Translations under genes and position numbers: made by a program
In this document: positions 33,719 through 46,429 of the stretch, in pieces
Position numbering within the stretch: position 1 is the stretch's first letter
Layout: every line of letters starts with the position of its first letter
Notes under the pieces: generated by a model
Database searches by the model: none
Seen by the model: only the letters and a program-made list of their open reading frames with translations
Told to the model about the DNA's origin: nothing
NCBI GenBank assembly: GCA_020850355.1
Contig: JADZEX010000050.1
Coordinates: 186,001-250,000, forward strand
DNA: 64,000 bases
DNA from: Fimbriimonadaceae bacterium
GTDB lineage: Bacteria; Armatimonadota; UBA10988
Direction: 5' to 3'

Positions 33719-33748
33719 TTGCCGGCAGCGGCGCGCCTGTGCTATCGT
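33719..33748 (+). promoter_or_regulatory. Promoter of the DUF6785-like gene (candidate leaderless start)
   Basis: TTGCCG (33719-33724), an 18-base spacer, then TATCGT (33743-33748). The expected transcription start, about seven bases on, coincides with the ATG at 33755. No Shine-Dalgarno sequence precedes that ATG. Confidence 0.4.
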
Positions 33749-33754
33749 CCGGGC

Positions 33755-35677
33755 ATGACGGATCGCCCCACCCCGCCGCGACCGAACCCCGGTGTGACCT
33801 GGCGCTCGCTGCTGCTCGCGGCAGTGCTGGTGCCGCTCAACATCCACTGGGTGACCGTCGTCGAGGTCCGCTGGTATAGCCTCGACGGCGCCGAGTTGCC
33901 GCTCTTTGTGACGCCGGTCTTCATGCTCTTCGTGCTGGTGCTGCTGAACCTGGCCGTCGGCCGGCTGCGGCGCTCCTGGGCGCTGACGCAGGGCGAGTTG
34001 CTGGCGACCTACATCGCGGTGGTGATCAGTTGCACCATCGCCGGGCACGACTGGTGGCAGAACTTCTTCGGGGCGGCTTCCCACCCGTTCTACTTCGCGA
34101 CCGCCGAGAACGGCTGGGAGGCGCGCTTCTTCCAGTACCTGCCGGAGTGGTCCGCGGTCCGCAACCAGGACGTGCTGAAGGGCTTCTACCAGGGCAACAC
34201 CCCGCTCAGCGCGGAGATCTGGCAGGCCTGGGCAATACCGTTGCTGGTCTGGGGCTGGCTGACCGTGGTGGTGGTGGCGATGATGCTCTGCATCAACGTG
34301 ATCCTGCGCCGGCAGTGGACCGAGAACGAGCGGCTGACCTACCCGATCGTGCAGTTGCCGCTGGCGCTGACGGAAGAGTCGGGCCGGCTGCTGCTGCGCA
34401 CGCCGGCGCTCTGGTACGGCTTCACGGTGGCCTTCGGCATCGGGCTGCTAGCCGGCGCCAATCTCTTGCTGCCGTCGCTGCCGTACCTCAATGTCAAGCA
34501 GTTCGACCTCCACATCTGGCTGACCGGCCGGCCCTGGGACTACGTCGGCACGGCCAACATCTCGTTCTACCCGTTCATGATCGGCCTGGCCTACTTCCTG
34601 CCGCTCGACCTGGCCTTCTCGTGCTGGTTCTTCTATGTCGTGCGGATGGCCGAGCAGATGATCGGCGGCCTCGCCGGAGGTGACACCGGCCGGTTCTTCC
34701 CGCGGCTGCCCGAGCAGAGCGCCGGCGGCTGGCTGGCCCTGGCCTTCATTGCCCTGTGGGGTTCGCGCGACTACTTGCGCGGCGTCTGGCAGCAGGTCGT
34801 CAGCGGGCGGATGCTCTCGGAGGAGCCGCTGACCTACCGTACCGCGGTGGTCGGCTTCCTGCTCGGCCTGGCCTTCCTGGTCTGGTGGACCGGCCTGTTC
34901 GGCGTCGGCCTCGGCACGGCGCTGTTCTTCTGGCTGCTGTTCTTCGCGCTCAGCCTGGCGATGACCCGCGTCCGGGCCGAGCTCGGCTCGCCGCACGAGA
35001 TCTACTTCGTCAACCCGCGCCGGATCATGATGAACTTCTGCGGCACCTCGGGCTTCACGCCGCAGGAGCTGACCTTCCTGAGCGTCAGTTACTGGTTCAA
35101 CCGCTGCTACCGCTGCCACCCGATGCCGCCGCAGCTCGAGGCCTTCAAGATGGCCGAGAACGACCGCCTCAACGCCCGGCGGCTGCTGTGGGTGATCCTC
35201 GCGGTGACCGCCCTGGCGCTGGTGGCGGCGAGCTATAGCAACCTGGCGGTCTGCTACGCCGACGGCGCCGCGGCGCAGTGCCGGGGCTTCAAGCGCTGGG
35301 TCGGGCAGGAGAGCTACCAGGACCTCAGCCGCTGGCTGGAGATCCCCGAACGCTGGGATGTGCGCGGGACCTTCTGGCTGCTGGGCAGCTTCGCGTCGAC
35401 GGTTTGGTGCAACGCGATGCGGCGGCAGTTCCTGTGGTGGCCGTTCCACCCCGCCGGCTACCCGCTGGCCGTCAGCTTCGCGATGGACTACTTCTGGTTC
35501 GCGGTCTTCGTGGCCTGGCTGCTGAAGTGGACGGTCCTCAAGATCGGCGGGATGCGGCTCTACCGGCAGGGCATTCCGTTCGCCCTGGGCCTGATCCTGG
35601 GTGACTACACGATCGGCTCGATCTGGGCCATCGTCGGGCCGGCGCTGAAGATTCTGACCTACAAGATCTTCATCTGA
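33755..35677 (+). CDS. DUF6785/DUF6784-type polytopic membrane protein
   Basis: About 640 aa with a dozen or so hydrophobic segments, a periplasmic loop with many aromatic residues, and the segment RVRAELGSPHEIYFVNPRR followed by CGTSGFTPQEL. The pattern (N-terminal LVPLNIHWVTVVEVRWYS, QGELLATYIAVVISCTIAG) matches the DUF6785/6784 family common in Armatimonadota and related phyla. That family is distantly reminiscent of oligopeptide transporters. Substrate and direction are unknown. The ATG at 33755 is preferred over an upstream start because of the promoter position. It converges on the small genes at 35679-36425. Confidence 0.7.
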   Translation: MTDRPTPPRPNPGVTWRSLLLAAVLVPLNIHWVTVVEVRWYSLDGAELPLFVTPVFMLFVLVLLNLAVGRLRRSWALTQGELLATYIAVVISCTIAGHDWWQNFFGAASHPFYFATAENGWEARFFQYLPEWSAVRNQDVLKGFYQGNTPLSAEIWQAWAIPLLVWGWLTVVVVAMMLCINVILRRQWTENERLTYPIVQLPLALTEESGRLLLRTPALWYGFTVAFGIGLLAGANLLLPSLPYLNVKQFDLHIWLTGRPWDYVGTANISFYPFMIGLAYFLPLDLAFSCWFFYVVRMAEQMIGGLAGGDTGRFFPRLPEQSAGGWLALAFIALWGSRDYLRGVWQQVVSGRMLSEEPLTYRTAVVGFLLGLAFLVWWTGLFGVGLGTALFFWLLFFALSLAMTRVRAELGSPHEIYFVNPRRIMMNFCGTSGFTPQELTFLSVSYWFNRCYRCHPMPPQLEAFKMAENDRLNARRLLWVILAVTALALVAASYSNLAVCYADGAAAQCRGFKRWVGQESYQDLSRWLEIPERWDVRGTFWLLGSFASTVWCNAMRRQFLWWPFHPAGYPLAVSFAMDYFWFAVFVAWLLKWTVLKIGGMRLYRQGIPFALGLILGDYTIGSIWAIVGPALKILTYKIFI

Positions 35678-36574: not shown

Positions 36575-37117
36575 TCACACCATCCGGTTGGCGCCGCGCT
36601 TGCGGTACCACCACCACGCCAGCATCGCCAGCAGGCCGGCGATCTGCAGCGCGTAGGTCACTTTGGCGCGCTTGCTGATCAGCACCGGCAGCTCGCCCAC
36701 CGGCACCGCCAGCGCCGCGTTGAGCCGCTGCGCCCCGGCCGGCGTGAGCGGCAGCTCCAGCTCGAGCGTGCGCGGGGCCGCCAGCTCGCGCGCGGCGAAC
36801 TCCAGGCGCACCGTCGCCGTGTCGCCGCTGGCCGTCGCCGTGCGGCGCAGGCTCAGCGGCAGCTCGCGCAGGACCGTCGGCTCCAGCGCGTCGACCGTCA
36901 CCGCGCGCTCGCCGGTGAGCGCGCCGGGCAACGCCCGCACGGTCAGCTCATGCAACGACTCCGGGTAGCTGTGGTAGACCAGCAAGGTCAGCTCGCCGGC
37001 CGGCGCCAGTACGACCAGCGGCGCCGCGGGCTTCACGAAGAACTGGTCCCAGGCCGGGAACTGCGTCACGGGCGGGGCCAGCAGCAGCAGCGTGGTCAGC
37101 GTCTCAAGCAGCCCCAC
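36575..37117 (-). CDS. Small bitopic membrane protein, last gene of the redox operon
   Basis: About 180 aa from a GTG at 37117 that lies inside the end of the activator gene, with GGAG upstream. The N-terminus is hydrophobic (LLETLTTLLLLAPPV), and the middle is a beta-rich extracytoplasmic region that reads like an Ig-like domain. A C-terminal membrane helix (YALQIAGLLAMLAWWWY) is followed by basic RKRG. No cysteines suggest that it carries no cofactor. Co-translation with the ATP-dependent activator implies a part in the same membrane-linked process, perhaps as an assembly or anchoring subunit. No family recognised. Confidence 0.6.
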   Translation of the reverse strand: MGLLETLTTLLLLAPPVTQFPAWDQFFVKPAAPLVVLAPAGELTLLVYHSYPESLHELTVRALPGALTGERAVTVDALEPTVLRELPLSLRRTATASGDTATVRLEFAARELAAPRTLELELPLTPAGAQRLNAALAVPVGELPVLISKRAKVTYALQIAGLLAMLAWWWYRKRGANRMV

Positions 37118-37892
37118 GGTGGTTCTCCAGCCCGAGCAGCGCCGCGCCATAGGCGCCGACCAGTTGCGGCTCGGCCGGCACGTTGGCGGTCACTCCCAGC
37201 AACCGCTCGATCGCCCGGACCAGGCCGCTGTTGAGGGCGCCACCGCCGGTGCAGGTCACCTCCGGCGCCACGCCGACGCGTTGCGCCAGCGACCGGACCC
37301 GCTCGGCCGCCGCGCTGCAGAGGCCGGCCGCGATGTTGGCGACCGGTTCCTCCCGAGCGACCAGCGAGACCACCTCGCTCTCAGCGAAGACGGTACACAT
37401 GTTGCTCAGACCAACGGCCCGCTGCGCCTCCAGGGCGAGCGGCCCAAGATCGTCGAGATCGATCTCCAGGGCGCGCGCCATCACTTCGAAGAACCGCCCG
37501 GTGCCGGCGGCGCACTTGTCGTTCATCGCGAAGTCGATCACCTTGCCGCCCGGCGCCAGGCGAATCGCCTTGCAGTCCTGCCCCCCGACATCGAGCACGA
37601 GCTGGGTCTGCGGAAACAGCGCCACCGCACCGCGGGCGTGGCAGGTGATCTCGGTCACCGCGCTGGTCCGCCCGTCGACGCGCTCGCGGCCGTAGCCGGT
37701 CGCCACGATGGCTGTCAGGTCGGCGGCGTTGAGGCCCGCCTTGCCGATCACCTGCAACAGCGCCCGTTCCGAGGCCAGCCGCGACCGGGCACCGGTCAGC
37801 ACGACCTCGCTGTGGCACAGCGCGCCGCGGTCGTTGATCAGCACCGCGGCGCAGGTCAGTGAGCCGCTGTCGATTCCGGCGTACCAGCCCAT
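37104..37892 (-). CDS. ATP-dependent activator of a 2-hydroxyacyl-CoA dehydratase/double-cubane-cluster protein
   Basis: About 262 aa from the ATG at 37892 (GAGGGAG site). An ASKHA-fold ATPase of the BadF/BcrAD/HgdC group: phosphate-1 motif GIDSGSLTCAAV at the N-terminus, LVLDVGGQDCKAI, the cluster-binding NDKCAAGTGRFFEV, the second cysteine in NMCTVFAESEV, and CTGGGALNSGLV near the C-terminus. A homodimer holds one [4Fe-4S] cluster between subunits. ATP hydrolysis drives low-potential electron transfer to the partner. The partner gene lies directly upstream (37912-39048), the usual enzyme-reductase pairing. Oxygen-sensitive and cytoplasmic by family precedent. Confidence 0.9.
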   Translation of the reverse strand: MGWYAGIDSGSLTCAAVLINDRGALCHSEVVLTGARSRLASERALLQVIGKAGLNAADLTAIVATGYGRERVDGRTSAVTEITCHARGAVALFPQTQLVLDVGGQDCKAIRLAPGGKVIDFAMNDKCAAGTGRFFEVMARALEIDLDDLGPLALEAQRAVGLSNMCTVFAESEVVSLVAREEPVANIAAGLCSAAAERVRSLAQRVGVAPEVTCTGGGALNSGLVRAIERLLGVTANVPAEPQLVGAYGAALLGLENHRGAA

Positions 37893-37911
37893 GCGCGCTC
37901 CCTCGCGGCGG

Positions 37912-39048
37912 TCAGCCGCGCAGCATCTCCACAAACGCCTCGACGCGGGTCTGCAACTGCCCGCGGTCTTCGGCACTGAAGTCGGTCGAAACGCTCAACA
38001 TCGGCAGGCCCCGCGCGCGCAGCGTCTGCTGCATCGCCTGGGCTTCCATCTCAAACAGCGCGCAGAGCCGCAGGCAGTGGTAGACCACGCCGTCGACGCG
38101 GTGCGTCGTCGCCAGCTCCTGCACGCGGTTGAGCCGGTCGGTGCCATCCACGAAACAGGGACAGGTGGTCGGCAGCAGGCACTTCTCGGCGACCGCGTCG
38201 AGGAGCGCCGGGAGGCTCGTCTCGCGCAGTTCGACCGGCTGGTAGACGCGCTGCGTGCCGGAGCAGAACTCGTCGATCACCACCCGCGCGCCGTCCGCTT
38301 CGGCCAGCTCAATCAACTTGTGGTTCGGCCAGATCAGCGGCGCGCCGGTCAGCAGCAGCCGCACCGGCCGGACCGCCGGCGCCGGCGGCGGGGACTGCTC
38401 CAGCCGCTCGCAGAGCGCCTCGAGCTGCGTGGTCCAGCGGCCGACGTCGTCGGTGAACGAGGCCTGGGTCACGAACAGGGCGTCCTGCCCGGTGATCCGC
38501 GGCGGGTCGGCGGCGCGCAGGGCCAGGAAGCGGCGGAACACGCGGTGCCGGCGGTTGATCAGGTCCATCGCCTGGCGTAGCGCGGCGCGGGTCAGCGGGG
38601 TGCCGGTCAGCCGTTCGATCACCGGCACCAGGTCGCGGATCTGGGTCTTCCAGAAGGCCTGCGCGCTGGGGCTCTCTTTGCGCGGCGGCAGGTCCAGCAC
38701 ATGGACCGGCTTGAACTGCCCCAGCACCGGGCCGAGCTTCTTCTTGGCGTCGCAGGGCGTCGGCAAGATCAGCAGGTCGGCCCGCCCGCACAGCCCGTCG
38801 CCGCGCTGCACGCGACCGGCCGCCGACTTGGCCACCGCGCACAGGTCGCGGGGCAGGATCGCCTCGGCCGCGCGCTCGGCCGCGGCGTCGCCCGAACACA
38901 GCCGCACGGGCACCGCGCCGCAGGCCAGCAGCAGCTCCTCGGGCACAAAGTTGCAGTAGCAGCCGACGACGCGGCCGTGGTAGCCCGCCAGCTCACGCTC
39001 GCGGCGGTCGGTGGTGACGATCTCCCGGAAGTACTGCAGCTCGTCCAT
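37912..39048 (-). CDS. HgdB/double-cubane-cluster-type iron-sulfur protein
   Basis: About 378 aa from the ATG at 39048 (GGGAG site; a GTG four codons upstream is the alternative). It belongs to the 2-hydroxyacyl-CoA dehydratase D-component family (HgdB, FldB/C, YjiM). Cysteines lie where clusters are bound: CYCNFVPEELLLACGA (residues about 30-45), LPTPCDAKKKLGP, TTCPCFVDG and VVYHCLRLCALFEMEAQ. A single catalytic-type subunit beside one activator, rather than an alpha/beta pair with CoA-transferase, is the arrangement of double-cubane [8Fe-9S] cluster proteins. Those reduce small molecules such as acetylene. No CoA-transferase or fermentation gene is nearby, so I favour the double-cubane reading. 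The physiological substrate is unknown. Confidence 0.8.
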   Translation of the reverse strand: MDELQYFREIVTTDRRERELAGYHGRVVGCYCNFVPEELLLACGAVPVRLCSGDAAAERAAEAILPRDLCAVAKSAAGRVQRGDGLCGRADLLILPTPCDAKKKLGPVLGQFKPVHVLDLPPRKESPSAQAFWKTQIRDLVPVIERLTGTPLTRAALRQAMDLINRRHRVFRRFLALRAADPPRITGQDALFVTQASFTDDVGRWTTQLEALCERLEQSPPPAPAVRPVRLLLTGAPLIWPNHKLIELAEADGARVVIDEFCSGTQRVYQPVELRETSLPALLDAVAEKCLLPTTCPCFVDGTDRLNRVQELATTHRVDGVVYHCLRLCALFEMEAQAMQQTLRARGLPMLSVSTDFSAEDRGQLQTRVEAFVEMLRG

Positions 39049-39060
39049 CGAATCTCCCAC

Positions 39061-40050
39061 TTACGACCGCAGGATCCGCCGGCCAAGGAACTTCAACTCC
39101 AGGCAGCCGGGCTCGGGGCAGTCCTCCAAGCAGGTCAGGCAGAGCTGGCACTCTGGCGCCGTGACCACCGGCCGGCGGCGCTCCAGGTAGACGTCGTCCA
39201 GGTCGAGCACACAACTTCGGCGGCAGGTACCGCACGAGGTACACTTCTGCGCCGACTTCTCCAGCGTCAGCAGCGCCCCGCGGTTGAAGTACCCGACCAG
39301 CGCCCCGATGGCGCAGATCCGGCACCAGAAGCGCGGGATGGCGAAGCTTAGGAAAAACAGCCCGAAGCAGAACCAGCCGAGCACCGTCAGAAACATCGTG
39401 ATGCTGTTGGTGTTGTCGGTCCAGCAGGGGTTGACCAGACCGAGCGGCGGGTAGCCCAACCGGGCCGGGCAGATCTGGCAGTAGATCAGGAACAGCGCGT
39501 CGTTGGCGCCCTGCCCCAGCCAGGGGTAACCGATCAGCACGGAGACGACCACCGTGAACCAGACCAGGAAGTGGCGCAGGTAGAACAGGAAGCGCTCCCA
39601 CCGTGGGGTGAGGTGGATCTGTCTCCAACGGGTCAGCTTCCGCAGCCAGGTCATCGCGTCCATCAGGGCGCCCATCGGACAGATCCAGCCGCACCAGAAG
39701 CGTCCTAGCAGGAGGCATAGCACGACCAGCCAGACGATGTGCGGCAGCATGATCTGCAGCGACGTGCGCCAGGTGAAGTTCTCGCTGAAGAAGTGCAGGA
39801 TGCAGGACTTGAAGAGCCCGCCCTTGGCGGTGAAGCGGCAGGCCAGCGCCGGCAGGTAGAGGTCGACCACGGACTCCTTGCCGGAGACCCAGAGGATCCG
39901 GTTGCGGTTGTAGAGCGTCGTGCGCGGCACGCCGGCCGGGACCTTCGGCAGCGGCGTCTCGTAGTGCCGCGGCCAGATGAAGGCGCCGTACATCAGCAGG
40001 ATGAAGAACACGACTTGCACGGCCCGCCGGGTCACCGTGATGCGGTTCAT
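39061..40050 (-). CDS. Membrane polyferredoxin (NapH/NosR/CcoG-like 4Fe-4S protein)
   Basis: About 329 aa from the ATG at 40050 (GAGGTGG site). Around five hydrophobic segments carry CxxxCP-type motifs at their ends (CGWICPMGALMDA, CRICAIGALVGYF). The C-terminus holds two ferredoxin-like [4Fe-4S] motifs (CTSCGTCRRSCVLDLDD and CQLCLTCLEDCPEPGC). The architecture is that of NapH, NosR and related quinol-linked electron-transfer proteins. Its place directly upstream of the double-cubane gene suggests that it passes electrons between membrane quinone or periplasmic donors and the cytoplasmic iron-sulfur partners. A long periplasmic loop (PRHYETPLPKVPAG) follows the first helix. Confidence 0.85.
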   Translation of the reverse strand: MNRITVTRRAVQVVFFILLMYGAFIWPRHYETPLPKVPAGVPRTTLYNRNRILWVSGKESVVDLYLPALACRFTAKGGLFKSCILHFFSENFTWRTSLQIMLPHIVWLVVLCLLLGRFWCGWICPMGALMDAMTWLRKLTRWRQIHLTPRWERFLFYLRHFLVWFTVVVSVLIGYPWLGQGANDALFLIYCQICPARLGYPPLGLVNPCWTDNTNSITMFLTVLGWFCFGLFFLSFAIPRFWCRICAIGALVGYFNRGALLTLEKSAQKCTSCGTCRRSCVLDLDDVYLERRRPVVTAPECQLCLTCLEDCPEPGCLELKFLGRRILRS

Positions 40051-40069
40051 CGCCACCTCGCGTCCCGTC

Positions 40070-40972
40070 TCAGCCCGCCGCGGCACTCGTCGCCAGCAGC
40101 GCCAACGCCTCCTGACAGGCCTGCAACGTGCTGGCCTCCAGCGCCAACCCCAGCCGCGGCTGGCCGGCCGGGCCACGGATCGGCCGGACGCCGCTCCAGA
40201 AGCCCGGGTCGAGCTCCTCAAAGGTCCCCGCGGCGCCCCGTGCGGTCGCCTTTTCCGACAGCACCTTGGCGCGATAGGCGGTCAGGGCCTGATCTCGCAG
40301 AGCCTCGCTGGGGTACTCCACCAGCAGCACCCGCAGCGGCCGCGCCGCCAGCTCGCCGGCGGCCAGCAGGGCACTGGTCTCCGGGCCCAGCCCCAGGACG
40401 TTCTCGGTCGAAATGTAGAACAACGCGTCGAGGTTGCTCTGCTGGTGGAAGTACTGCAGCTCGCGCAGCTTCAGCGGCTCCCGCGGCAACGCCGCGGCCA
40501 GCGGCGGGAACGGCTCGCCCGCCGGCAGACAGGTGGCCAGATGCTGCGCGGCTGCCACTGCGAACTGCCGGACCGCCGGTTGGTCGCCCTCCGCCTCCAC
40601 CTTCAGGAAGACCTGCCCCTGCCAGCCGCGCAGCACGCCGTCCTGGTAGCGCGCCGCCTGCAGGCCGGGCACCGCTTCGCCAGCCAGCAGGTTGGAGTCG
40701 ATTCCAAAGGCCTCGGCCGCCGTGGTCATGTCGAACAGATGCACCTGCACCTGCTGCTCGCCAACCTGGTAGGGCGCCACGACCAGCCGGCGGAAGGCGT
40801 ACGTCAGGTAGATCTCGGCCTTGCCATCCATGTAGTCGAAGACCGTCACCGGGTCGTAGATCGAGACTCCGGCGATCCGCCGGGCCCCGCCGATGGTCTC
40901 CGGCAGCCAGGCCGCCGGGACCGGCTCCGCGGCCAGGGCGCAGACGGCTCCCAGCAGGGCGCAGGCCAGCAT
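40070..40972 (-). CDS. Secreted DUF6599-like protein of the redox operon
   Basis: About 300 aa from the ATG at 40972 (GGGAGGG site), which shares one base with the preceding stop. Signal peptide LACALLGAVCALAAEP; the mature protein starts WLPETIGGARRIAGVSIYDP. Features include VFDYMDGKAEIYLTYAFRRL and DMTTAAEAFGIDSN, which resemble the DUF6599 family of exported proteins. Few cysteines are present (one near residue 166 and one near the C-terminus), so a heme or cluster role is not indicated. Operon context implies a periplasmic partner of the polyferredoxin protein. Function not established. Confidence 0.6.
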   Translation of the reverse strand: MLACALLGAVCALAAEPVPAAWLPETIGGARRIAGVSIYDPVTVFDYMDGKAEIYLTYAFRRLVVAPYQVGEQQVQVHLFDMTTAAEAFGIDSNLLAGEAVPGLQAARYQDGVLRGWQGQVFLKVEAEGDQPAVRQFAVAAAQHLATCLPAGEPFPPLAAALPREPLKLRELQYFHQQSNLDALFYISTENVLGLGPETSALLAAGELAARPLRVLLVEYPSEALRDQALTAYRAKVLSEKATARGAAGTFEELDPGFWSGVRPIRGPAGQPRLGLALEASTLQACQEALALLATSAAAG

Positions 40973-41598
40973 CAGTTCCCTCCCAACAGCGCCGCAGCGC
41001 CGCGCAGGCCGAACCACAGCGCGCTCAGCAGCATGGCCACTTCCGAGAGCCCGCGCAGGTGCTCGCGGCGACCCAGGCTGCTGGCGCCCAGCAGCGGCAG
41101 CAGCCAGACCGTGGTGCCGGCGAAGAGCGCCAGCAGCAGCGCCACGGCCTCGGCCGGGCGACCGTCGCCGAGCAGCCGCGCCAGCGCCAGCAACAGCGGC
41201 GGACACGGGCTGAGGCCGAGCAGCAGCCCCGCCAAGAGGGGTACCCGGCGCCAGGCCGGCCGGCCACAGAGCGCGGCGCAGGGCCGCCACTCGGGAAAGC
41301 TGTGGCGCACGGCATGGACCGCCAGCAGCACCGCCAGCGCCAGGGTCAACAGCCCGCTGAAGCGCGCCAGGCCAGGCGAGCCGGCGAACCGCTGCCCGAC
41401 CGCCGCCACCGCCAGGCCACACAGCAGGTAAGCGGTCAGACGGCCGGCCAGGAACTCGCCGAGCTGCCACCAGCGCTGTCCCCAGGGCTGCGGCCCCTGC
41501 ACCACCAGCCAGGGCAGCAGCAACGGCGCGCACAGGCCGAGGCAGGCCGCGCCGCTGGAGAGGCCCAGCAACCAGCCTTCCCAGAGCGCGCCGATCAT
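40972..41598 (-). CDS. CcdA/DsbD-TM or sulfite-exporter (SafE/TauE)-like membrane protein
   Basis: 208 aa with six hydrophobic segments. The N-terminal SSGAACLGLCAPLLLPWLV has two close cysteines. A second pair region, FPEWRPCAALCGRP with LLGLSPCPPLLLALA, follows a short loop. The GLxPCPP motif in the second half-repeat is typical of CcdA/DsbD transmembrane thiol carriers and of the SafE group. By analogy it may move reducing equivalents or a small sulfur species across the membrane to the secreted partners. It starts 23 bases after the HEAT-repeat gene. Confidence 0.75.
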   Translation of the reverse strand: MIGALWEGWLLGLSSGAACLGLCAPLLLPWLVVQGPQPWGQRWWQLGEFLAGRLTAYLLCGLAVAAVGQRFAGSPGLARFSGLLTLALAVLLAVHAVRHSFPEWRPCAALCGRPAWRRVPLLAGLLLGLSPCPPLLLALARLLGDGRPAEAVALLLALFAGTTVWLLPLLGASSLGRREHLRGLSEVAMLLSALWFGLRGAAALLGGN

Positions 41599-41620
41599 CG
41601 GCTACCCTCCGTGGGGCGGC

Positions 41621-42589
41621 TCACTCCGCCACGGTCGGGCGGTTCGCGACGTCCACCAGCGCATCGCCGGCGGTGGTGCGCTGCTGCGGGTCGTTGGTCC
41701 GGAAGGCCGCGTCGAGCGCCGCGACGCCGGTCTTGTCGCGCTGCGCCGCCAGGGCCCAGCCGCAGGCAATCCGGACGTAGACGTTCGGGTCGCTCAATCC
41801 ACCGCGCAGCGCCTCGTCGAGTTGCGGTCCGGAGTAGCCGGCCAGCGCCAGCCCGGCCTGCGCCGCCGCCTTCACGAAGGCGTCGCGGTCGGCGGTGTTG
41901 CTTAGGAAGGTGGTCGGCTCGTCCTTCAGCAGCCCCAGCGCCAGCAGCGCGTTGCCACGGATCCAGCCGTTGCGTTCCGCCAGCAACGTCCGCAGGAACT
42001 CGATGTGTTCTTTGTTGCCGGCCTTGCCAAGCGCCCGGATCGAACGCCCGCGGTAGTCGGGATTGTCCTGCCGGGCCCAACTGCTGAGTTTCTCGAAGCC
42101 GCTCGGATCACCCCGCCGGATCAGCGACTCGGCCGCCATGATGGCCGGCGAGTGGTTGCCGTTCTGGGAAGCGCTACGCAGCTCCTCAACCGACGGCTCG
42201 GCCAGGGGTTTGAAGCCGATCTCGTTGGCCGAAATCGCGAACACCAGGCGCCGCCCGCCCTTCGGGGTGCCGGGCGCCACGGTCAGCTTGACGTTGAACG
42301 AGACCCGCTGCCCGGCGGTCATCTCGGCGACCGCCGCGGGCTGGATGTCGACCTGCACCCCATCGCCGCCCTCGATCTGGGCCGCCAGCCGGACGTTGTG
42401 CAGGTAGGTGTGGTAGTTGTTCTGACAGAACACCCGAAACTCGTCGGACTGATCGACGATCGCGACGGGCTTCTCGGCCTTCACGATCACCCGGTCGGGC
42501 GTCCGGTAGATGTTGTTGCAGAGGTGTGCCGAGGCGCTCAGGGAGCCCAGGCACAGACCGACGACCAACCACCGACGCAGACGCAGCAT
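41621..42589 (-). CDS. Secreted HEAT-repeat protein, first gene of the redox operon
   Basis: About 322 aa from the ATG at 42589 (GGGAG site, then a signal peptide ending near SASA). The N-terminal 120 residues form a beta domain (VIVKAEKPVAIVDQSDEFRV, FCQNNYHTYLHNVRL). From about 145 the sequence is helical repeats of HEAT type: AAESLIRRGDPSGFEKLSSW, YRGRSIRALGKAGN and IRGNALLALGLLKD. Two Cys residues, including LCNNIYRTP just after the signal, could form a disulfide. It probably acts as a periplasmic scaffold for the following redox proteins. Named from repeats, not from a known orthologue. Confidence 0.7.
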   Translation of the reverse strand: MLRLRRWLVVGLCLGSLSASAHLCNNIYRTPDRVIVKAEKPVAIVDQSDEFRVFCQNNYHTYLHNVRLAAQIEGGDGVQVDIQPAAVAEMTAGQRVSFNVKLTVAPGTPKGGRRLVFAISANEIGFKPLAEPSVEELRSASQNGNHSPAIMAAESLIRRGDPSGFEKLSSWARQDNPDYRGRSIRALGKAGNKEHIEFLRTLLAERNGWIRGNALLALGLLKDEPTTFLSNTADRDAFVKAAAQAGLALAGYSGPQLDEALRGGLSDPNVYVRIACGWALAAQRDKTGVAALDAAFRTNDPQQRTTAGDALVDVANRPTVAE

Positions 42590-42775: not shown

Positions 42776-43198
42776 TCACCAGCGGTCGCGGCTGCCGCCG
42801 CCGCCGCCGCCGTAGCCGCCGCCCCGGCCGCCGCCGCCGCTGCCGCCGTAGCCGCCGCCGCTGCCGCCGCCGTAGCCGCCGCCGCGGCTGCCGCCGCTGC
42901 CGCCACCGTAGCCGCCGCCGCGGCTGCCGCCGCCGCCGCCACTGCCGCCGCGGTCGCCCTTCGGCTGGGCCTCATTGATGTTGAGGGACCGGCCGTCGCA
43001 GTTCTTGCCGTTCAGCGCCTCGATCGCCGCCTTGCCGGCAGCCTCGTCGGTCATCGTCACGAACCCGAAACCGCGCGAGCGGCCCGTTTCCCGATCGGTG
43101 ATCACCGCCACTTCACTGACGTCGCCATGCTCCTCGAACAACTCGCGGAGGGTGTCCTCGGTGGTGCGGTAGTTGAGGTTTCCCACGTAGATCTTCAT
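42776..43198 (-). CDS. Glycine-rich RRM RNA-binding protein
   Basis: 140 aa from the ATG at 43198 (GGGGAG site). A single RRM covers residues 1-80: RNP2 is KIYVGNLNY, RNP1 is RSRGFGFVTM, with AIEALNGKNCDGRSLNINEA at the end. The C-terminal 55 residues are Gly/Arg/Ser/Tyr repeats (GGGYGGGSGG type), ending SRDRW. This is the cyanobacterial Rbp/plant GRP layout, which is usually cold-induced and binds single-stranded RNA. The long leader with an initial hairpin fits post-transcriptional control. It is separated from neighbours by its own promoter and a hairpin. Confidence 0.9.
   Translation of the reverse strand: MKIYVGNLNYRTTEDTLRELFEEHGDVSEVAVITDRETGRSRGFGFVTMTDEAAGKAAIEALNGKNCDGRSLNINEAQPKGDRGGSGGGGGSRGGGYGGGSGGSRGGGYGGGSGGGYGGSGGGGRGGGYGGGGGGSRDRW
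42782..42957. repeat. GCC/CCG-rich triplet repeats encoding the glycine-rich tail
   Basis: Short imperfect units of CCGCCGCCGTAGCCGCCGC type, coding GGGYGGG on the minus strand. It is coding low complexity, expected to be prone to slippage, and not a CRISPR array. Confidence 0.7.
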
Positions 43199-43377: not shown

Positions 43378-45651
43378 CTAACCTGCCACCGGCGCGGCCA
43401 CCGGGCGGGTCAACGGGCAGGCCAACCAGCAGCTCTCGAAGTTGCACGGCCGGTACTTCGGAATCGCCGGCTGCTGCCGCAGCGCCGTCCCCAGGTGCTC
43501 CGAGGTGATCAGCTCGGGCGCCTCGACATGCAGGTCCCAGCCCAGGTAGTTGACGCCCTCCTCGCCGATCAGCGAGTACCGCTTGGCCCAGTCGCAGCGT
43601 GTCCGCTCGATCGGGTGGAAGCGCTCCAGCAGGCCGTCCAGCGGCAGCTCCAGCGGCTCGTTGAAGGCACTCGTCGAGCAGGCTTGCAGGCACCGCTCAC
43701 AGCCGTCGCAGGCCGCCGCCAGCGGCGCGGTCACGACCGCGTCGGGCCGCAGCGGGGCGTCGGTCACCAGCGCCATGAAGCGGACGTGCGGGCCATATTC
43801 GGCGGTCGTCACAAAGCCGGCCTTGGTGAGCCGGCCGAGCCCCGCCGCGACGGCCTCGAAGCGGTTGCAGAAGGCGTCGGGCTGCGCCCCGCGCGGATTG
43901 CCGACCACCGAGCCGGTCCCCGTCAGGTCGTTGCTCAGCACGCCCTGGTAGCCTGCGTCCTCGACCAGCCGTTGCGCCAGGAAGCCCATCCGGTAGAGCG
44001 CATTGGCGGACTCGTACTGTGCGAAGGCGTACGGCCCGACCGCTTCGGCCGGCGGCTCGGCACAGCGCTCGATCGCCGCCGCCGGGAGTCGGATTCCGAA
44101 CACGAGCACGCTCTGCGCGCCGTGCAGGTGGTCGTCCGGCGTGCGCACGGTCAAGCGCCGCTCGGCGACCTGCGGCTCGTAGGGCTCGAACGGTGCCGAC
44201 TGGTCGACCGCGTCGAGGCAGCGCATCCCTTCGAACGCCGCGAGGTGCGGCTTCAGGGCCGCGATCCGCGCCGCGGGCGCCACGCCCACCAGGTCGGCGC
44301 CGTGTTCGCGCAGCAGCAGCTCCAGTTGCTGCCGCAGGTCGCCCCGCGGGGCGGCCGGGACCGGCAACTCAAGGCTGGTCGCGGGCAGCGGCGCCGTGGT
44401 GACCACCGTCGCCGTCTCGACCCGCCGTCCCGGCAGCACGCCCGTGAGCGCGGCCTGCAGTCGCTCCTCCGGGAAGGCGCTGCAGCACACCGCGTCGTAG
44501 CCGCGCCGCTCGATCAGCCGGGTGATGTCGTAGGCCGCGCCTTCGCGCTGGTACTTGCGCATCCAGGCCGCCGGATCGGCGCCGGCGGGCTGCTTCAGAT
44601 GGTAGCCGACGGTGACCGTGTGGGTGCCGCCCGGCAGGAATGGCTCCAGCTCGAGGCCCAGCGCCCGCAACTCGGCCGGGCCTTGGACGATCACGAAGTC
44701 CACGCCCTGGCGCTGCGCGATGGCCTGCACCTGCTGGTCGAAACAGCGGTTCGGCTCGTCGTCGGTCGGCGCGTTGCGCTTGCGACGCGGCGCGTTGGTG
44801 TACGACTGCTCCCAGTAGCGCCGCTCCTCGGGCATGCAGTAACGCAGACAGCAGCCCATCTCGCCGCCCCGGCGGCCGTGCTTCCGGACCATGTCCAAGA
44901 TCACCGCCTCGTCGACCTGCTCGGGGATCGGCAGGTCCAGGTCGAGGTCGAAGTGCTCGCCCCACGAACAGCGCCAGAGGTTCTTGTCCGCGTAGGTGTA
45001 CTCCCGGCCCTCGATCCGCACGACACTGGTGCCGCGAAGCTCCTTGGTCAGCGCTCCCGAGGGGCAGGTGTCGGCGCACAGCCGGCAGTCGTCACAGACG
45101 CTGTGGGGGTCCAGCAGCGGGTCGGGCTGCAGCTCGGCGTCGGTGATCACGGTCACGAAGCGCTGCCGGGCGCCGAACTCCGGGGTGATCGCCAGGGCGC
45201 TGTACCCGAAATCGGCGAGGCCGGCCGCGACCGCGGCATGGCGGTGGCTGACGTCCGGGGCGAAGTGCTCGGTGAGGTTGCGGTAGCCCTTGTACCGCCA
45301 GATGTTGCTGCTGACGATGGGCACGGCCTGGTGGCCACGGGCCTGCAACCAGAGGCCGAGCCGGTAGCTGATCTCGTCGAGCCGCTGGTTCATCAGGTAC
45401 TGCACCCGGTACGGCCCGATCTCCTGCGGATGCGTCAACCCGCCCAGCTCAATGCAGGCATCGGGATGGTGGATCGCCATCACCACCACCGACCGCGCCG
45501 TCGGCAAAATGCCCTGCGGCGACATCAGCAGGGGCGCGTGCTCGAACCGCTCGATGTTGGCGACGCCGACCAGGTCGGCCCCCAACTCCTCCAAGGCAAA
45601 GGCCTTGACGCGTGCCGTCAGGGCGCTGTCCACCCGTCGTTCGCTGCTCAT
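43378..45651 (-). CDS. Tandem QueG/reductive-dehalogenase-like iron-sulfur protein
   Basis: About 757 aa from the ATG at 45651 (GGAGGT site five to six bases upstream). Two homologous halves each begin with EELGADLVGVANI or REHGADLVGVAPA, and each carries an RSVVVMAI/AQSVLVFGI strand and a later ferredoxin-like cluster. Half one has CDDCRLCADTCPSGAL plus a second set (CCLRYC). Half two has CDGCERCLQACSTSAF plus CNFESCWLACP. The fold resembles epoxyqueuosine reductase QueG and the cobamide domain of RdhA. A normal QueG has one unit of about 350-400 aa. No Tat signal is seen, so it is cytoplasmic. Coupling to an IclR regulator suggests a catabolic reductase more than tRNA modification. Confidence 0.7.
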   Translation of the reverse strand: MSSERRVDSALTARVKAFALEELGADLVGVANIERFEHAPLLMSPQGILPTARSVVVMAIHHPDACIELGGLTHPQEIGPYRVQYLMNQRLDEISYRLGLWLQARGHQAVPIVSSNIWRYKGYRNLTEHFAPDVSHRHAAVAAGLADFGYSALAITPEFGARQRFVTVITDAELQPDPLLDPHSVCDDCRLCADTCPSGALTKELRGTSVVRIEGREYTYADKNLWRCSWGEHFDLDLDLPIPEQVDEAVILDMVRKHGRRGGEMGCCLRYCMPEERRYWEQSYTNAPRRKRNAPTDDEPNRCFDQQVQAIAQRQGVDFVIVQGPAELRALGLELEPFLPGGTHTVTVGYHLKQPAGADPAAWMRKYQREGAAYDITRLIERRGYDAVCCSAFPEERLQAALTGVLPGRRVETATVVTTAPLPATSLELPVPAAPRGDLRQQLELLLREHGADLVGVAPAARIAALKPHLAAFEGMRCLDAVDQSAPFEPYEPQVAERRLTVRTPDDHLHGAQSVLVFGIRLPAAAIERCAEPPAEAVGPYAFAQYESANALYRMGFLAQRLVEDAGYQGVLSNDLTGTGSVVGNPRGAQPDAFCNRFEAVAAGLGRLTKAGFVTTAEYGPHVRFMALVTDAPLRPDAVVTAPLAAACDGCERCLQACSTSAFNEPLELPLDGLLERFHPIERTRCDWAKRYSLIGEEGVNYLGWDLHVEAPELITSEHLGTALRQQPAIPKYRPCNFESCWLACPLTRPVAAPVAG

Positions 45652-45676
45652 CGCTACCTCCGCGTTCGCGTTGCCC

Positions 45677-46429
45677 TCACAGTCGTGCGGTGACCCGTGC
45701 AGCGGTCGCCAGGAGCTCCGCCCGCAGGCCGGCGGACGCCTCGCTGGTCGCCCGAAAGGCCGGCAGGTAGAGCCCCAGCGCGGCCAGCAACTGGCCCTGC
45801 CGGTCCAGGATCGGCGCCGCCATCGAAACCACTTCCTGCTGCCCGGTGATCGCCTCGGCCAGCCCCGCGGCGCGGATCGCCGCCAGCGCCGGCTCCAGGT
45901 CGCTGGCCCGGTGCAGCTCCGGCCAGGCCGCGCTCGGCGGACCCAGCGCCAGCACCGCCTGCAGCTCGGCCGGCGTCGCGAAGGCCGCCAGGACGCGGCC
46001 CGTGACCATCGCCCAGAGCGGCGCCTGGTCGTCAAAGGCCGCATTGACCCGCACCACGGCCGAGCCCTCGAACCGCCGCAGGACCTGCCGCCGCCCATGC
46101 ACCAGCGTCGTCACGACGACGGACTCGCCGGTCCGCTCGGCCAGCTCGGCGGCCTCGGCCGCCGCCGCTGCCAGCCCGCCAGCGCTCAACCGCGCCGCCC
46201 TCGCCAGGTCCAGCGCCCGCGGCCCGAGCGTGTAACGGCGCTGCTCACCCCGCCCGGCGTAGCCGCACGCGACCAGCGACTTCAACAGATTGTGGGCCGT
46301 CGTGACCGGCACGCCCAACGCCTCGGCCACCACCTGCAGCCCAACCCCCTCGCCCCGCGCCGCCGCCTCCGCCAGTTGATCGAGCACCGCGCAGGAGCGT
46401 TGAATCGACTGGATCGGCGCTTCACTCAT
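45677..46429 (-). CDS. IclR-family transcriptional regulator
   Basis: About 250 aa from the ATG at 46429. A winged HTH spans residues 5-65 (IQSIQRSCAVLDQLAEAA, then AEALGVPVTTAHNLLKSLVA and YTLGPRALDLA), followed by the IclR effector domain (VVVTTLVHGRRQVLRRFEGS, GRVLAAFATP, GQQEVVSMAAPILDRQGQ). Typically it binds a small aromatic or central metabolite and represses or activates adjacent catabolic genes. It sits 25 bases upstream of the tandem iron-sulfur protein, its probable target. A palindrome overlapping its own start region suggests autoregulation. Confidence 0.9.
   Translation of the reverse strand: MSEAPIQSIQRSCAVLDQLAEAAARGEGVGLQVVAEALGVPVTTAHNLLKSLVACGYAGRGEQRRYTLGPRALDLARAARLSAGGLAAAAAEAAELAERTGESVVVTTLVHGRRQVLRRFEGSAVVRVNAAFDDQAPLWAMVTGRVLAAFATPAELQAVLALGPPSAAWPELHRASDLEPALAAIRAAGLAEAITGQQEVVSMAAPILDRQGQLLAALGLYLPAFRATSEASAGLRAELLATAARVTARL

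Follow-up and report, generated by a model that had tools for sequence, protein, structure and literature searches.

What does a double-cubane-cluster-type protein (DCCP) do for a cell when its gene is packed between genes for membrane and secreted proteins? Recent work describes the biological role of double-cubane proteins as unknown (PMC11971306). The question is raised by a 64,000-nucleotide stretch of a Fimbriimonadaceae bacterium (Armatimonadota; contig JADZEX010000050.1, positions 186,001 to 250,000; hereafter the window), in which an operon of seven open reading frames (ORFs), all on the minus strand and all confirmed in the window, occupies positions 42589-36575. We report that a functional coupling of the DCCP with these membrane and secreted partners is well supported by comparison of sequences and gene neighbourhoods, and we weigh what the coupling may serve.

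A seven-gene operon around a double-cubane-type protein

In operon order, the genes are:

41621-42589, minus strand: secreted protein with an H-L-C start, an immunoglobulin (Ig)-like domain and HEAT repeats (hereafter HLC protein), 322 aa; HEAT_2, 67.4 bits
40972-41598, minus strand: DsbD_2 CcdA-like membrane protein, 208 aa; PF13386, 69.7 bits, 4e-19
40070-40972, minus strand: secreted DUF6599 protein, 300 aa; PF20244, 75.1 bits, 7e-21
39061-40050, minus strand: NapH-like membrane polyferredoxin, 329 aa, four transmembrane (TM) helices; Fer4_5, 40.8 bits, plus a two-cluster ferredoxin domain
37912-39048, minus strand: DCCP, 378 aa; HGD-D PF06050, 319.7 bits
37104-37892, minus strand: BadF/HgdC-type ATPase activator (activase), 262 aa; BcrAD_BadFG, 204.9 bits; TIGR00241, 244.2 bits
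36575-37117, minus strand: bitopic protein with an outside Ig-like domain and a C-terminal TM anchor, 180 aa, GTG start

An earlier note, made from the letters of this DNA alone, had described seven tightly packed same-strand genes, and this description holds: the intergenic distances are 22, -1, 19, 12, 19 and -14 bases (negative values are overlaps), hence 22 bases or less, and Shine-Dalgarno-like purine-rich stretches lie upstream of several of the start codons. Families were assigned from Pfam and NCBIfam profile scores, the Pfam and TIGR00241 matches exceeding their curated cut-offs. The gene identities given in the earlier note hold, with two refinements: the thiol or sulfur carrier belongs to PF13386, and a comparison by hhalign gives the bitopic protein an Ig-like outside domain.

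The same note had taken the central protein for a double-cubane type rather than a dehydratase, and both the cluster ligands and the tree bear this out. In a phmmer search against the PDB, the protein matched the DCCP structures 7yyl/6eno with E ~1e-64, BzdN with 1e-20 and a 2-hydroxyacyl-CoA dehydratase beta subunit with 1e-14. The published [8Fe-9S] ligands of BzdN are Cys36/73/100/263/293/327 (PMC11971306); transferred by alignment, they predict C32, C70, C99, C262, C296 and C329 in the window DCCP, all six of which are present and align with both BzdN and 6ENO. In a tree computed without long-branch rows, 15 DCCPs linked to partners of this kind fall on one side of a branch (support 99/97), with the canonical DCCPs, including E. 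coli YjiM and 6ENO, on the other; with more rows, the DCCPs of Bathyarchaeota and of genomes in which the cluster is split join the linked clade (99/98). This clade is sister to YjiM/6ENO and lies apart from BzdN and HadC. On the NF040772 double-cubane model, the window DCCP remains below the cut-off (324 versus 350 bits), and most members of the linked clade score lower than canonical members. Since a canonical copy and a linked copy coexist in each of two genomes, G249 and G301, the two groups are best read as paralogues and not as one drifting family.

Compared with the C. hydrogenoformans (6ENO/7YYL) and E. coli (YjiM/YjiL) systems, the window DCCP shares the fold family, the six cluster cysteines, the single subunit and the adjacent HgdC-type activase, but differs in its separate clade, its NF040772 score and its constant membrane and secreted partners, of which E. 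coli yjiM has none. With HadBC and BzdNOPQ (2-hydroxyacyl-CoA dehydratases and class I benzoyl-CoA reductases), it has in common an ATP-dependent activase driving a PF06050 protein. An identity of that type is nevertheless ruled out by the tree, the ligands and the absent second subunit: the host genome (6.67 Mb, 117 contigs) encodes one HGD-D protein instead of two different PF06050 subunits, with the TIGR00241 gene next to it; the operon has no CoA-metabolism genes; and the equivalog scores for HadC, BzdN and BcrC (84, 75 and 56 bits) reach none of the cut-offs (700, 454 and 421 bits, respectively). The activase is a normal TIGR00241 member (cut-off 125.4 bits) with PDB matches to 9gai, 4eht and 1hux. 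Its C127 and C166 sit where HgdC binds the [4Fe-4S] cluster that bridges its dimer, and we take them to have the same ligand role. By analogy with these relatives, the window DCCP is predicted to carry an actual [8Fe-9S] cluster and to undergo ATP-dependent reduction.

All linked DCCPs compared keep the six ligand cysteines except for one paralogue (L041, 4456-5661), in which two ligands are lost (G at the C32 and H at the C262 position) and which shares its operon with a complete DCCP; it is a candidate for a natural single-sub-cluster protein. The double-cubane family is strongly expanded in one Dehalococcoidia genome (G305, the genome of L056), with 13 matches in 2.1 Mb. The host of the window also encodes haem-copper oxidase subunit I, and is therefore probably not a strict anaerobe.

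Recurrence of the gene set in bacteria and archaea

Among 291 Armatimonadota genomes, 7 have a close polyferredoxin homologue and 27 a DCCP, and all 7 have both, i.e. the DCCP is present in 7/7 genomes with the polyferredoxin versus 20/284 without it (Fisher p = 2.7e-8, a value that ignores ancestry). Neither the gene set nor the linkage is unique to the host, as the earlier note had allowed it might be: a genome of another family (G249) holds all seven families contiguously in a different order (activase-HEAT-bitopic-DsbD_2-DUF6599-polyferredoxin-DCCP), G002 has six of the seven genes before its contig ends, and in G001 DUF6599 is missing at the locus. Because the same set recurs in other genomes, it stands far above chance, and a chance neighbourhood of seven genes is ruled out by this recurrence together with the co-occurrence.

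A genome-wide scan found related loci in TA06, Myxococcota (two), Omnitrophota, Auribacterota, Verrucomicrobiota, Planctomycetota and unclassified bacteria, and in most of them the polyferredoxin gene directly precedes the DCCP gene. Related sets of polyferredoxin, DCCP and activase with secreted Ig-domain proteins, often also with DsbD_2, occur in Myxococcota, Omnitrophota, Auribacterota, Verrucomicrobiota, TA06 and Bathyarchaeota. In Bathyarchaeota, one locus (L176) reads secreted CARDB protein-DsbD_2-NapH-DCCP-activase-activase-ferredoxin and another (L177) DsbD_2-DCCP-activase-activase. When further genomes with a polyferredoxin match were tested, 16/16 also matched the double-cubane model (E <= 1e-30). 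Note that most related loci come from metagenome-assembled genomes, that their taxon labels may be wrong, the Patescibacteria label above all, and that their genes were called by a simple ORF script. The earlier note knew of no described system with this composition, and we likewise found no published description of it in the open-access literature, which omits most subscription journals.

Some DCCP operons contain genes for a WtpABC-like tungstate-type ABC transporter, all below the equivalog cut-offs (L050, 5496-11314; L036, 3974-6426; L040, 12775-17661); L050 and L040 additionally encode a second polyferredoxin and a PQQ-type propeller. In the window itself, just upstream of the operon, 43378-46098 (minus strand) encodes an apparent tandem of two epoxyqueuosine-reductase/reductive-dehalogenase-like Fe-S modules (by eye; weak Fer4 matches only), followed by the gene for a glycine-rich RRM protein at 42776-43159. 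On the opposite strand, the gene for a large DUF6785/DUF6784 membrane protein (33719-35677, plus strand) ends near the operon, and a protein of this type also flanks the operon in L023 (989-2953).

The polyferredoxin and the extracytoplasmic partners

The polyferredoxin has 16 cysteines that are invariant in an alignment of 29 homologues, although other alignments place C83 differently for Bathyarchaeota and two Deltaproteobacteria. Its structure model (predicted local distance difference test score, pLDDT, 84.4) has four TM helices, with a positively charged cytoplasmic loop and C-terminus. With this topology, C71, C83, C191 and C194 are predicted outside, and C120, C124, C243 and C246 inside together with the eight ferredoxin cysteines. 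Like NapH, NosR and CcoG, the polyferredoxin combines an Fe-S core in the membrane, which has two pairs of cysteines, with a two-cluster ferredoxin domain at the C-terminus. The protein nevertheless scores far below the napH_ cut-off (TIGR02163; 55.7 versus 213 bits), shares 12 cysteines with the NapH layout and adds the four invariant outside ones, which are absent as a set from E. coli NapH and from the paralogous NapH-like proteins of the same genomes. These four cysteines may bind a cluster. The CcoG/FixG model TIGR02745 does not match the window polyferredoxin; the C-terminal Ig domain fused in that family is absent, and Ig domains are encoded by separate genes. Whereas NapH, NosR and CcoG go with nitrate reductase, N2O reductase or cbb3 oxidase, the window polyferredoxin is tied to a DCCP.

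Four Chloroflexi loci (L056, L058, L059 and L060) encode polyferredoxins of ~258 aa with equivalent outside cysteines, each preceded by a gene for a thioredoxin-like lipoprotein. This arrangement suggests that the outside site of the polyferredoxin talks to thiols, and the Chloroflexi pair is possibly an Fe-S counterpart of DsbD. In three Bathyarchaeota loci (L039, L043, L049), the polyferredoxin carries an N-terminal extracytoplasmic extension and is followed by a NosD-type beta-helix gene, identified by a Pfam match for L049 and by similarity for L039 and L043. A DUF6599 protein also forms a second module with a larger polyferredoxin, at L026 in the host's own genome (contig C31, 3895-7667), and, in related genomes, at L025 (14398-18962) and L027; the extra protein between the two at L025 may be DUF362-like.

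The first gene had been called a secreted HEAT protein in the earlier note, which is correct as to the HEAT_2 match, but the HEAT repeats are the least conserved part, and it is the N-terminus and the Ig domain that persist. The HLC protein has a signal peptide to residue 21, a predicted mature N-terminus H22-L23-C24-N-N-I-Y, a beta-sandwich at ~34-120 and HEAT repeats at 134-316 (model pLDDT 87.8). Only H22, L23, C24, L68 and P84 are invariant among 14 homologues. All homologues but one have Ala, Gly or Ser directly before the His, and the residue at -3 is small or aliphatic, so that cleavage would leave the His as residue 1 and the Cys as residue 3. H-[LV]-C stands at the predicted cleavage site in Armatimonadota, TA06, Planctomycetota, Omnitrophota, Auribacterota and Verrucomicrobiota, and two further split-cluster genomes have the same mature start (AHLC in L167, SHVC in L179). 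The mature H-x-C terminus is likely a metal or redox site. A lipoprotein reading of the cysteine was ruled out by eye, as there is no lipobox. The C-terminal part is variable, being HEAT in Armatimonadota, other sequence elsewhere and a TM anchor in L042 and L179; such replacement is seen in TA06, Planctomycetota, Auribacterota, Verrucomicrobiota and Omnitrophota, and we therefore reject the idea that the HEAT repeats are the protein's functional core. Foldseek with the HLC protein returned HEAT-type proteins and gave its Ig domain no assignment.

The bitopic protein has no match in the Pfam and NCBIfam libraries. Its outside domain and the Ig-like domain of the HLC protein are homologues (hhalign 98.5%), its C-terminal anchor is related across phyla (hhalign 95.6%), homologues occur in L023, L024, L025 and L143, and in L031/L144 (L031 = G250) the HEAT protein is fused with the bitopic domain. 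The DsbD_2 protein (PF13386 threshold 24.9 bits) belongs to a CcdA/DsbD-like family that also adjoins the DCCP in Bathyarchaeota; its C19 and C23 (CxxxCxP) and C132 are invariant in 5 homologues. For the DUF6599 protein (PF20244 threshold 27 bits), a literature search yielded nothing. A DUF6599 protein at L143 (10801-11814, minus strand) ends in a cysteine-rich tail (CQACGGCC...CCGG). As a whole, the set resembles the ccoGHIS copper-delivery operon in bringing together a polyferredoxin, a small anchored protein that faces the periplasm and, in some genomes, a DsbD_2 protein, but it lacks P-type ATPase and oxidase genes and adds the DCCP, the activase and the HLC and DUF6599 proteins.

Direction of electron flow

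We tentatively favour, at somewhat less than even confidence, a conserved membrane-spanning redox system in which low-potential electrons, raised with ATP in the cytoplasm, would most likely flow outward through an Fe-S wire to a metal or thiol centre outside. The activase would spend ATP to push low-potential electrons into the DCCP, as shown for relatives. Electrons would pass between the DCCP or the activase and the ferredoxin domain that the NapH-like protein has in the cytoplasm; the Fe-S sites of this membrane protein, predicted from the cysteine pattern, would form the wire to the four-cysteine outside site. There, the HLC protein with its H-x-C site, the anchored Ig protein and the DUF6599 protein would be the partners, and the CcdA-like DsbD_2 protein could provide a parallel supply of thiol electrons. 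Such a flow would deliver strongly reducing electrons to an extracytoplasmic centre at the cost of ATP, and the system would be a low-potential counterpart of accessory reductases of the CcoG or NosR type. Direction and substrate are both proposals. For outward flow speak the copper reduction by CcoG, the membrane potential, which favours it, and the fact that most partners face outside. CcoG is a cupric reductase and hence an outward precedent (PMC8267372), and we count the Chloroflexi polyferredoxins next to thioredoxin-like lipoproteins as a further one. In its boldest form, which we regard as rather doubtful, the system would export a super-reductant across the membrane, an ATP-charged double cubane feeding a 16-cysteine wire and a secreted His-x-Cys metal site, and would allow reduction beyond the ordinary periplasmic redox window, outside the cytoplasm. 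No ATP-driven outward path for low-potential electrons was found in the open-access literature searched.

Several observations weigh against the outward reading. No extracytoplasmic enzyme partner is constant across the loci, and the direction comes solely from analogy and membrane energetics. The NapH adjoining the L176 DCCP lacks the outside set of four cysteines; elsewhere in that genome (L043) lies a second polyferredoxin, which has the CxxCP motif. Foldseek with the polyferredoxin found no matching membrane fold, and for the membrane part of NapH no solved structure exists for comparison. The five-gene envelope core is separated from the DCCP by ~13 kb in G014 and lies on another contig in G004. 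Lastly, the DCCP itself could be the terminal enzyme, as its relatives reduce small molecules.

In a reading with the opposite direction, the NapH-like protein would be a dedicated membrane ferredoxin that takes electrons from quinol or outside thiols and feeds the activase, while a small molecule in the cytoplasm would be reduced by the DCCP. In favour of this, activases normally receive electrons from a ferredoxin and the operon has no soluble ferredoxin gene, and the polyferredoxin gene precedes the DCCP gene with an almost zero gap. DCCPs are known to reduce acetylene, hydrazine and azide (PMC11971306). Inward flow would, however, need a very strong outside donor to reach low potential against the membrane potential and would leave four secreted or outward-facing partners without a clear role, and L176 carries a small ferredoxin gene of its own; we consider it unlikely. 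The operon could also mature a metallocentre, like the cco and nos accessory genes. The NapH-like protein would then reduce the metal, DsbD_2 would carry metal or thiols, the HLC protein would be a chaperone whose N-terminal His belongs to a metal site, and the DCCP and activase would power one hard reduction step. Metal or oxyanion handling is a live alternative because CcoG-type loci (L096, L097, L098, L102, L103) also pair a polyferredoxin with DsbD_2, and because WtpABC-like genes lie inside the Auribacter operon and WtpBC-like ones beside a Myxococcota operon; NosD follows a Bathyarchaeota polyferredoxin. Against it, the target metalloenzyme is not constant, the CcoG model does not match, the metal at H-x-C is putative and tungstate-type transporter genes are missing from the Armatimonadota operons, which rules out tungstate as a universal substrate. 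As a whole, we give this maturation reading a fairly low probability. A further reading splits the set into two independent units that are simply frequent neighbours, an envelope operon of five genes (HEAT, bitopic, DsbD_2, DUF6599, polyferredoxin) and a DCCP-activase pair with no relation to it. The separations in G014 and G004 would agree with this, but it is improbable: these and the other split-cluster genomes (G291, G293) still encode a DCCP of the linked clade, the co-occurrence is significant, and several phyla as well as archaea show the linkage again with differing gene orders. The earlier note had proposed that the membrane and periplasmic partners feed or regulate the DCCP centre; adjacency, co-occurrence and the clade split sustain the link, whereas we infer its direction.

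Overall, the recurrent gene sets give a puzzling protein family a conserved cellular setting. The analysis brings out a polyferredoxin subfamily for which an Fe-S or metal site is predicted on the outside, and a secreted family whose N-terminal H-[LV]-C is invariant, each without a Pfam or NCBIfam model of its own in the libraries used. A separate DCCP clade is now defined, which in both bacteria and archaea has recurrent partners in the membrane and among secreted proteins, and the question of function therefore becomes a testable one, namely which outside centre the wire serves.

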